Below, piece after piece: positions 13,584 through 37,862 of a stretch of DNA of 42,346 nt. The stretch is from assembly GCA_938083005.1 (NCBI GenBank), contig CALKCU010000017.1, positions 1 through 42,346 of the forward strand. The letters run 5' to 3'. Source of the DNA: an uncultured Sulfolobales archaeon. GTDB taxonomy: Archaea > Thermoproteota > Thermoprotei_A > Sulfolobales > NBVN01. Every line of letters starts with the position of its first letter. The stretch's first letter is position 1. Under the pieces are notes generated by a model. The model searched no databases. It was not told the DNA's origin and saw only the letters and a list, made by a program, of their open reading frames with translations. A program made the translations under genes and the position numbers.

Positions 13584-13678
13584 AGCGGGGTGGGGTAGCC
13601 TGGTAGCCCGCGGGGCTCATATGGGGTAGCCCCTGTGAGACCCCGAGGTCGGTGGTTCAAATCCACCCCCCGCTACCA
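13584..13678 (+). tRNA. Initiator tRNA-Met (CAT) with an 18-nt intron at position 37/38; CCA encoded
   Basis: Acceptor AGCGGGG/CCCCGCT + A + CCA; D-arm GGGT..GCCC; anticodon stem CGGGG/CCCCG; loop CTCATA|TGGGGTAGCCCCTGTGAG|A; T-arm GGTGG TTCAAAT CCACC. A1-U72 and GGG:CCC in the anticodon stem indicate the initiator type. Confidence 0.93.
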
Positions 13679-34562: not shown

Positions 34563-35721
34563 CGACCTCTATCTTCTCCGGGATGTACCTGTCCGCCAGG
34601 AACTTAAGGCCCTTGCCCACCAGGGCTTCTATCTCCAGCTTGACCCTCCTAGCCAGGAACTCGTCGAGCTCGAGCTGCCACCTCTCCGACCTGAACCACG
34701 GGTATTCCTTGAGCTCCTTGGCCCTCTTTACGTCGCGCTCCTTGGCCCTTATTATGAAGCTCCTCCTCTCCTCTTCGGAGAGGTACGGTTTCTTCCCGAG
34801 CTTCCTGCTCCCGAATATGTCGGTCATCATCACTCCGAGGAACCTCGCGTTGGGGGTCGCCAACCTCTCGCTCTCGTAGGACAGGGTTATGGATCCGGTC
34901 TTGAAGACGCTGTATATGTAATAGCCGTAGGGGTCCGAGTCTGAGATCACGTAGACCGGCAGTCCGAGCTCCTCGTTAAGCCTCCTGACGAACCTCCTCG
35001 TGGCCCTATCGGGCTGCCCCGCGCTCGTGACTAGTATAGCGCGGTACCTCCTCCAGAACCCTATCCTGTGGAGCTGCTGAAAGACAGCGTCCTTCTCTAC
35101 TATTAGAACGAGGTCCGCGTCGACCTCTACGAACTCTATGAGGTCGGGCGTTGGCTCTATAGCGTAGGCACCGTGCCCCATCTTGCTCAGGTCTATGAGG
35201 TCGTCTCCGGATCTTATCCTAAGGTCCCCGACGACCTTGCCCTTCTCCTTGCTAAGAATGAGCATATCCTCCCGCAGCACGTTGGTGAAGACCTCTATGT
35301 CTCTCAACACGGAGTCCGACTCCGCCTGCTCATCCCAGGTGTTCTCTTCTCCCACGGCCTTGGACGGAAGCCTCCTGTACCTTATCGTGTGTTTGCCTCT
35401 GTAGAAGAGGTCCCTTATGGTCGGGTACTCCCCCTGAGATAGAGCCTCGTGCACTATACTCGCCATGAGCATCGTCTGCATGAACTTCCTGGACTCGCGC
35501 GAGTCCAGGAAAGACCTCTCGAGAGTGGCGTCCCCCAGGAGGAGCAGCTTACGCTCCGGGTCGTAGATGGTGTTGCTGAGGGTTCTCCTCTTTATCATTA
35601 GCTTGGGCTCCCTCCCTTCCATCACGTCCTTGAGGATGTCGCAGAACCTCTCGTAGAGGACCTTCAGGGCCCTCTCGCGCGCTCTCAAGTCCGCTCTGGT
35701 CGAGTAGCTACCGGTGCTCAT
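34546..35721 (-). CDS. top6A: DNA topoisomerase VI subunit A
   Basis: Active-site region PTIRDLFYRGKHTI (catalytic Y retained, first Y of YY is F); Toprim VYVISDSDPYGYYIYSVFKTGS. Confidence 0.95.
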   Translation of the reverse strand: MSTGSYSTRADLRARERALKVLYERFCDILKDVMEGREPKLMIKRRTLSNTIYDPERKLLLLGDATLERSFLDSRESRKFMQTMLMASIVHEALSQGEYPTIRDLFYRGKHTIRYRRLPSKAVGEENTWDEQAESDSVLRDIEVFTNVLREDMLILSKEKGKVVGDLRIRSGDDLIDLSKMGHGAYAIEPTPDLIEFVEVDADLVLIVEKDAVFQQLHRIGFWRRYRAILVTSAGQPDRATRRFVRRLNEELGLPVYVISDSDPYGYYIYSVFKTGSITLSYESERLATPNARFLGVMMTDIFGSRKLGKKPYLSEEERRSFIIRAKERDVKRAKELKEYPWFRSERWQLELDEFLARRVKLEIEALVGKGLKFLADRYIPEKIEVGDWID

Positions 35722-37291
35722 CCCAGTTCACCACGCTATCTAAGTCTGCTATCTTGAACGACCTGAGCTTGGAGTTGAGGGCCTCCAGTAGCTTCGCGGA
35801 CGCCTCCCGCGGGTTCACCCCGTATATCTTGGATAGAGACCTCGCCACCTCGGGTATGTACTTCGCGATCTCCACGGCCTTCTCCACTTCCTCCAGTTCC
35901 CTTCTCTTCTTCAGTATGTACGACCTGAGCTCCCTGAGGACTTCGCGAAGTGCCGCCTCCACCTCCTCCTCTATTTCGGGCACGTCCGCGACGGCCTCCT
36001 TCCCGACCCCTCTATAGGGGATCTTAGTGCTACATATGTGAGTGAGTATGACGAGCGGCGCCGGAAACTCGATCCCGTAGACCTTGAAGTCTATCCCCTT
36101 CTTCTCGTTTATAACCTTGAACACCACGTCGCTCCCCTCGTCGTAGAGCAGGGGGATCTTGTTCGCGTACCTCAGTACGAGGGGCTTCTCCACCACCGGG
36201 ACTCTGCCTCCGTAGGCTACCCCGGCCTCGACTATGAAGGCGTGGCCCTCGTAGACAGAGGGTCTCCTGGTAACCGCGGAGACAAACTCGGGGTCGAAAA
36301 CCTTCTTGAGACCGGAGACTATTATCTCCTCGCCTAGGTAGGACAGATGGTCAGCCCTCGGGGGCTTCACGTCCCTATAGCTCCTCATCACTCTGACTAG
36401 CGACTCCACTTCCTGCTCTGAGAGCTCCCCAGATATCTTCTCCGGGTCTACCCGGGCCTCCTCGAGGATCCTTTGCGCTGTCACCGGTCCGACGCTCTGA
36501 AAGCTCTTGACGAGGACCTCTGCTATCGGCTTGTCAGCCAGAGACTTCAGGACGCCCTTCATGGTCTCGATATCGACCCCGTGGGGGTGCGGAAGGGTCT
36601 CCCTGGCGGGCGGCGGCAGTTTGTCTATGGATCTCTCGAAGAGTATGCAGTTCCCCTCGGGGTCCCTGAACAGTATCTCGGCGTACGGAGCCACTATCGC
36701 GGTTCTCTTTACGTACTCGTATATCCTCTGCTTGGACCGAATCCAGTCGCCCAGCGTGACCAGCCTAACGATAGTTCCGTGCGCTCCCGAGATGTTCGAA
36801 GTAGTCGAGAAGCTCAGGATCACCGGCTTGTTCTCTCCTATGTCTATCTTCAGCCTGAAGCCGTAGACGTGCTTAGACCCTCTCGGTGCTACGATAACTT
36901 CAGCCGGCTGACCCGTGGTGATCTGCGCGTAGAGAAGGGCCATCTTGGCTCCTAACCCGAACATGCCCCTCGACTGCTTCAGGACGTACTTGGAGCTGAA
37001 CAGCAGTTGCGCGAAAGCCCGGGGAACGTACTTCGGCGGTATCCCTACGCCGTTGTCCTCCACGGTCACCTCGTAGTATGCTCCCTCTGGGACCACCTCA
37101 AGCTCTCTTATGGACGCCTTGATCCTCGGTAAGATACCGTAGTTCTCCGTCGCATCGAGGGAGTTCTCGACCAGCTCCCTGACCGTCTGGTAGAGCGCCC
37201 TGGCCGGGTTCGAGAAGCCCGCTATCTCCTTGTTTTTGTAGAAAAACTCCGCCGGAGAGATCGACCTGAAGCCTCCCTCCACTACGGCCAT
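35708..37291 (-). CDS. top6B: DNA topoisomerase VI subunit B
   Basis: GHKL motifs: LVENSLDATENYGILP, VEDNGVGIPPKYVPRAFAQLLFSSK, QSRGMFGLGAKMALLYAQITTG. Confidence 0.95.
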   Translation of the reverse strand: MAVVEGGFRSISPAEFFYKNKEIAGFSNPARALYQTVRELVENSLDATENYGILPRIKASIRELEVVPEGAYYEVTVEDNGVGIPPKYVPRAFAQLLFSSKYVLKQSRGMFGLGAKMALLYAQITTGQPAEVIVAPRGSKHVYGFRLKIDIGENKPVILSFSTTSNISGAHGTIVRLVTLGDWIRSKQRIYEYVKRTAIVAPYAEILFRDPEGNCILFERSIDKLPPPARETLPHPHGVDIETMKGVLKSLADKPIAEVLVKSFQSVGPVTAQRILEEARVDPEKISGELSEQEVESLVRVMRSYRDVKPPRADHLSYLGEEIIVSGLKKVFDPEFVSAVTRRPSVYEGHAFIVEAGVAYGGRVPVVEKPLVLRYANKIPLLYDEGSDVVFKVINEKKGIDFKVYGIEFPAPLVILTHICSTKIPYRGVGKEAVADVPEIEEEVEAALREVLRELRSYILKKRRELEEVEKAVEIAKYIPEVARSLSKIYGVNPREASAKLLEALNSKLRSFKIADLDSVVNWDEHR

Positions 37292-37346: not shown

Positions 37347-37404
37347 CCATTCAGAGAAGAGAAGACACATCAGCTGTCAGGAGACCGTCGTTTCATCACC
37401 ACGG
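37347..37404 (-). ncRNA. C/D box sRNA (2'-O-methylation guide)
   Basis: Minus strand: CCGT-G-GTGATGA(C)-AACGACGGTCTC(12)-CTGA(D')-CAGC-TGATGT(C')-GTCTTCTCTTCT(12)-CTGA(D)-ATGG. + strand positions: C 37393-37399, D' 37377-37380, C' 37367-37372, D 37351-37354; terminal stem CCGU/AUGG. Confidence 0.9.
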
Positions 37405-37475: not shown

Positions 37476-37862
37476 CTAAGCTCTCCGAGCGTTCATGAGC
37501 AGCAGGTACCTTGTGAGGAGGGGACACCTGATCGGGTCGTAGTAGCCTCCTATGCCGCACCTGCTTATATGCCTGCACGTAAAGCACGGCACCTCGATCA
37601 CAGGGTTCAAGCTCACGGAGATGTTTATGGGAGCCCTCGTGTTATCGGAGTACCTCAGGATGTACGTCTTCCGCCCCTTGTACGTCGTAGCCTCCCGGAG
37701 CAAGAGGCCTCTCCTCATGAGCCTCGCAACGAGCTTGCCACCATCCCTGCTATCTATCCCGAGGATACGCCATAGCTCGCTCTGCACGATACCGCCGCTC
37801 CTCTTAGTCGCGTCCCTGATTATCTCGAGCGCTCTCTCCTCGAGGCTTGAGTCGCTTTTTAT
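37476..37862 (-). CDS. RPC34/RPC39-like winged-helix protein with C-terminal Fe-S Cys motif; start codon uncertain
   Basis: Winged helix LEERALEIIRDATKRSGGIVQSELWRILGIDSRDGGKLVARLMRRGLLLREATTYKGRKTYIL, then CFTCRHISRCGIGGYYDPIRCPLLTRYL. The N-terminal helix lies upstream of the ORF-track GTG (37787). Confidence 0.65.
   Translation of the reverse strand: MKSDSSLEERALEIIRDATKRSGGIVQSELWRILGIDSRDGGKLVARLMRRGLLLREATTYKGRKTYILRYSDNTRAPINISVSLNPVIEVPCFTCRHISRCGIGGYYDPIRCPLLTRYLLLMNARRA

Follow-up and report, generated by a model that had tools for sequence, protein, structure and literature searches.

A predicted dual-guide archaeal C/D box sRNA with putative 23S rRNA targets at C2590 and G2056

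Locus, box architecture, and occurrence in relatives

The window analyzed here is the whole stretch of 42,346 nucleotides of contig CALKCU010000017.1, from an uncultured Sulfolobales archaeon. It contains a C/D box sRNA gene lying on the same strand as both of its neighbors, topoisomerase VI subunit B (top6B) and a conserved 103-aa open reading frame (ORF) (Table 1). The initial annotation, made from the sequence alone, had placed it between topoVI-B and an RPC34-like gene; the first of these is borne out by its Pfam domain, whereas the label RPC34-like has no Pfam support, the 103-aa upstream ORF having no Pfam match. The sRNA is located upstream of top6B, at a distance of about 55 nt, and the congeners examined share this arrangement. 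Beyond the genus no top6B was found next to the sRNA, so the sRNA is not a leader of the top6B mRNA. The flanking top6B has named relatives in MAGs labeled Sulfolobales, Desulfurococcales, or Thermoproteota. A TATA-like motif is found ~29 nt upstream of box C, and across 38 relatives the AT content upstream of this box peaks at 0.82 to 0.89 between positions −29 and −26, which is where an archaeal TATA box is expected for a start near box C. This conserved AT-rich box suggests that the sRNA has its own promoter.

Table 1. Features of the sRNA locus and its neighbors (all on the minus strand; rRNA positions in E. coli numbering)
Feature	Position	Strand	Assignment or evidence
C/D box sRNA gene	37347-37404 (core 37351-37399)	(-)	
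Box C, GTGATGA	37393-37399	(-)	Sequence; kept in relatives
D' guide, AACGACGGTCTC	37381-37392	(-)	Predicted target 23S 2587-2596, N+5 = C2590; 10 Watson-Crick pairs (congener 23S), co-variation in 17/17 genomes
Box D', CTGA	37377-37380	(-)	Sequence and relatives
Box C', CTGATGT (TGATGT core 37367-37372)	37367-37373	(-)	Sequence and relatives
D guide, GTCTTCTCTTCT	37355-37366	(-)	Plausible target 23S 2052-2063, N+5 = G2056; second-best 16S 1485-1496; pairing with congener 23S, energies
Box D, CTGA	37351-37354	(-)	Sequence and relatives
Flanks, CCGT and ATGG	37404-37401 and 37350-37347	(-)	
top6B, topoisomerase VI subunit B	35708-37291	(-)	Downstream neighbor; Pfam PF09239, E 3.4e-59
Conserved 103-aa ORF	37476-37787	(-)	Upstream neighbor
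TATA-like TAATAA	37425-37430	(-)	Candidate sRNA promoter

The boxes follow the order C (RUGAUGA), D' (CUGA), C', D (CUGA) that characterizes archaeal C/D box sRNAs, with a CAGC linker between D' and C' and a C' box that differs from RUGAUGA at both end positions. Boxes, spacers, and flanks read exactly as the initial annotation had written them, including the length of both guide spacers, 12 nt, which lies within the 10 to 12 nt of the class and is near-constant across 38 relatives. The complete C-D'-C'-D pattern has a single match within the window and none in 300 dinucleotide shuffles (both strands). The genome also encodes fibrillarin (PF01269, E 1.5e-101). The CCGU/AUGG terminal stem proposed earlier is correct in its letters, with one G·U pair and one extra G before box C, but it is not conserved, as the flanking complementarity across 38 relatives was no better than that of shuffled partners, and the stem at this locus is probably due to chance. 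Many RNAs of the class have such a stem, and we did not count it as a requirement.

A covariance-model scan was one of the checks that had been suggested for the locus. No Rfam family matched the 186-nt intergenic stretch above its gathering score, while the weak matches (E ≤ 10) were all to C/D box families (11/11) and mostly fell exactly on the sRNA. The best of them was sR42 (RF01127; E 0.011, 19.1 bits against a gathering score of 38), and snoPyro_CD (RF00095) reached 16.4 bits against 45. Both are weak full-length matches to RNAs of the same class with different guides, so the sRNA is a member of neither family.

Of 21 genomes, 12 gave the sRNA in BLASTN, and the genome of the window is one of these 12. 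A pattern of box C, D' guide, and box D' was present in 41 of the 199 genomes of the order, against 1 match for the reversed pattern used as a control; these comprise 23 of 31 genomes in family f1, to which the window belongs, 16 of 18 in f2, and two in f3. Variant copies occur in G007, G017, G045, and G001. The 38 distinct sRNAs compared have retained the cores of both guides and also the boxes, on whose conservation the initial annotation had made its call depend, and they differ in the D'-C' linker and the flanks. The copy of the congener G001 (L033), also upstream of top6B, has a decayed box C (GTAGTAA) and an intact C'/D half; it is possibly a half-lost sRNA or an assembly error. Outside the order, in a sample of 400 genomes of the phylum, the sole match to the dual-guide pattern (G318) lacks a C' box and was set aside as chance-like. 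Matches to the D guide only, in G488 and G422, have no C/D' partner module in front and were likewise set aside as chance-like.

The D' guide and position 2590 of 23S rRNA

As neither 23S nor 16S rRNA is present in the MAG to which the window belongs, targets were read from its congeners. The 23S rRNA of congeners and other relatives reads GGGTTTAGACCGTCGTGAGACAG at the D' target, in agreement with the segment that the initial annotation had named, and the guide forms 10 consecutive Watson-Crick pairs with positions 2587 to 2596, more than the minimum of 9 nt on which that proposal hinged. The N+5 pair is a G-C at the first C of ACCG, the nucleotide already singled out, which maps to C2590 in helix 93. 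Ten Watson-Crick pairs are found at this site in every relative tested, and only 1.25% of composition-shuffled D' guides reach 10 Watson-Crick pairs anywhere in 23S. The sRNA almost certainly directs methylation of the large rRNA, and C2590 is the predicted site.

Guide and target also change together. C2590 is accompanied by the guide GACGGTCT in 12 genomes, and G2590 by the guide GACGCTCT in 5 (G024, G054, G079, and G122 of genus g17 and G007 of g2), so that the guide matches the base at 2590 in all 17 genomes having both sRNA and 23S. The 5 genomes carry G2604C too, which flips the helix 93 pair 2590-2604 from C-G to G-C, and swapping guides and targets between the two types costs 4.1 and 6.7 kcal/mol. 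A domain V tree with columns 2590 and 2604 masked needs 1 change (support 63/97). As a single origin accounts best for the tree, independent repeats of the change were discarded, and the change at 2590 is most likely a single evolutionary event, to be counted as one natural experiment rather than five. Even as a single event, the co-variation makes a chance resemblance between D' guide and 23S very unlikely. The joint change of the base at the predicted methylation position 2590, of the base that it pairs with in the helix, and of the guide provides natural evidence for selection on methylation (or pairing) at this position. The flipped pair, found in two genera of the family, can be read at L013, L069-L071, and L073, the 23S loci of G007, G122, G079, G054, and G024.

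The D guide, its candidate targets, and proposed function

The D guide had been left without a recognized target, and we can now propose a plausible one. With congener 23S GGGAGAGAAGAC (E. coli 2052-2063) it forms 12 pairs, 10 Watson-Crick and 2 G·U, and its N+5 is a C-G pair at G2056. We take this segment to be the root of helix 73 and the central loop of domain V, adjoining the nucleotides of the macrolide site. The D target stands on weaker ground than the D' target, as the guide is pyrimidine-rich and wobble pairing is readily reached by shuffles, 39% of which attain a 12-nt Watson-Crick/G·U run and 2.75% its weighted score. Both guides were also compared with tRNAs of the congener G002, using the 30 of its 43 that scored best, and every match there contained a mismatch or several wobbles and fell short of the 23S sites.

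Considering the locus as a whole, we conclude with high confidence that it encodes a dual-guide archaeal C/D box sRNA, which as a standard sRNP most likely methylates C2590 through D' and G2056 through D. The boxes, complementarity, conservation, and co-variation are direct results; that the gene is transcribed, that its RNA assembles into an RNP, that the rRNA is methylated, and that the RNA has any part in folding are inferences. The transcript would form a K-turn at C/D and a K-loop at D'/C' and would bind L7Ae, Nop5, and fibrillarin. Pairing of the D' guide with 23S 2587-2596 would let fibrillarin place a methyl group on the 2'-OH of C2590, which lies next to the peptidyl transferase centre in helix 93, and pairing of the D guide with 2052-2063 would direct methylation of G2056. 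Both sites belong to the central ring of domain V though they are ~530 nt apart, and a single particle could thus keep the two strands together as the rRNA folds as well.

A role in folding could even be all that the D half has, acting by pairing as an rRNA folding chaperone around helices 73 and 93, with methylation at C2590 only; we regard this as unlikely, if worth serious thought. The parallel is yeast snR190, whose box A pairs with 25S helix 73 around G2395, where no methylation was found at the predicted site, and which acts as a chaperone; its other element pairs with domain I (PMC8536666). The sRNA described here would likewise be a C/D RNA, with a D target near the helix 73 that snR190 binds at the foot of domain V; its D' guide is predicted to pair with 23S 2587-2596. 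Yeast G2395 is presumably nearly equivalent to E. coli ~2053. Dual guides with distant targets have been proposed as chaperones by Dennis 2015 (PMC4644070), and the guides found here, so far apart on their target, are kept together in 38 sRNAs. However, the D box, the 12-nt spacing, and the Watson-Crick pair at position 5 have been retained, as they are in methylation guides, and the drift of the D guide in family f2, described below, suggests that the RNA can persist when its second target changes.

The same sRNA might instead use its D guide on 16S rRNA, in place of or besides 23S, as 16S GGGGGAGAAGTC in helix 44, by the decoding centre, resembles 23S GGGAGAGAAGAC; we judge this improbable. 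The 16S segment is presumably 1485-1496 in E. coli numbering, and the N+5 nucleotide would be G1489. The idea fits f2 best, where A in place of T at guide position 11 gives −16.1 kcal/mol with 16S against −13.4 with 23S, and the f2 guide has probably shifted its target to 16S or serves both. The guide of the window's family, with T at position 11, favors 23S (−16.9 against −12.2 kcal/mol), the T at position 4 of all guides forms an A-U pair with 23S and a G·U with 16S, and the guide region of family f6 (G017), whose D box is the variant CCGA, is an exact 12-nt complement of the 23S site. The difference between f1 and f2 is a testable case of guide retargeting.

That the locus holds no functional sRNA, being a motif arisen by chance or part of the leader of the topoisomerase VI mRNA, could be suspected from its place before top6B in the congeners examined but is scarcely credible, as the same RNA occurs outside the genus without an adjacent top6B and the guide and rRNA co-vary.

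Building on the dual-guide reading, we offer a wider scenario tentatively, as a possibility that we would sooner doubt than assume. The RNA would bridge 2052-2063 and 2587-2596 of the peptidyl transferase ring as both guide and folding clamp, and, as the rRNA cores are alike, a single change would have switched the D guide between 23S 2056 in the catalytic centre and 16S 1489 in the decoding centre in sister families; the D' guide, for its part, would have tracked a change of base at the very nucleotide that is methylated.

Some of the 23S sequences have peculiarities around these sites. G015 (L009) and G020 (L010), both without the sRNA by pattern, read AAGTCC near 2062 where other relatives read AAGACC, giving a U at the normally conserved A2062. 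In G003 (L074), G024 (L073), and G009 (L076), the spacing between the two target sites is ~150 to 200 nt above the usual, which suggests rRNA introns between them.

Comparison with known guides and other RNAs

The C/D guides of archaea are regarded as having a rapid turnover, and for the majority the targets are predictions only. Neither the class of the sRNA nor its D' site is new; what is added here is the gene, the combination of these two sites in one RNA, and the co-variation. In Dennis 2015 (PMC4644070), C2864 is the predicted target of Pyrobaculum calidifontis sR30 (D' guide) and of Ignicoccus hospitalis sR124/sR127, and alignment position C2880 is equated with E. coli C2606. With this offset of 274, C2864 should be E. 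coli 2590, so sR30, which also uses its D' guide, and sR124/sR127, by target position, share the nucleotide predicted here. Unlike the window's sRNA, sR30 directs its D guide to C2880 (E. coli C2606) rather than G2056. Distant dual targets are listed in the same paper, and its Table 3 does not contain the 2590/2056 pair. A literature search by E. coli number for archaeal C2590 or G2056 found nothing, although G2056 may have been listed as a target before. Position 2590 appears to be modified in yeast also, as snR73 guides Cm2959 in 25S (PMC8307265), which appears to equal E. coli 2590 when counted from Um2921 = U2552 on colinear numbering. As snR73 is a eukaryotic snoRNA, the likeness is one of modified position and implies no homology of the RNA genes.

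A different C/D sRNA is present in G030 (L129, family f7). Its D guide, AACTTCTCTCCG, fits 23S 2053-2061 or 16S helix 44, and the complement of its D' guide, GGAGTCCGACCC, corresponds to 23S 2603-2612, with N+5 near C2606, as read against the rRNA of relatives. Elsewhere in the window, positions 13584-13675 (+) match the Rfam tRNA family (92 nt, 53.7 bits); this tRNA, not reported by ARAGORN with bacterial settings, possibly contains an intron.
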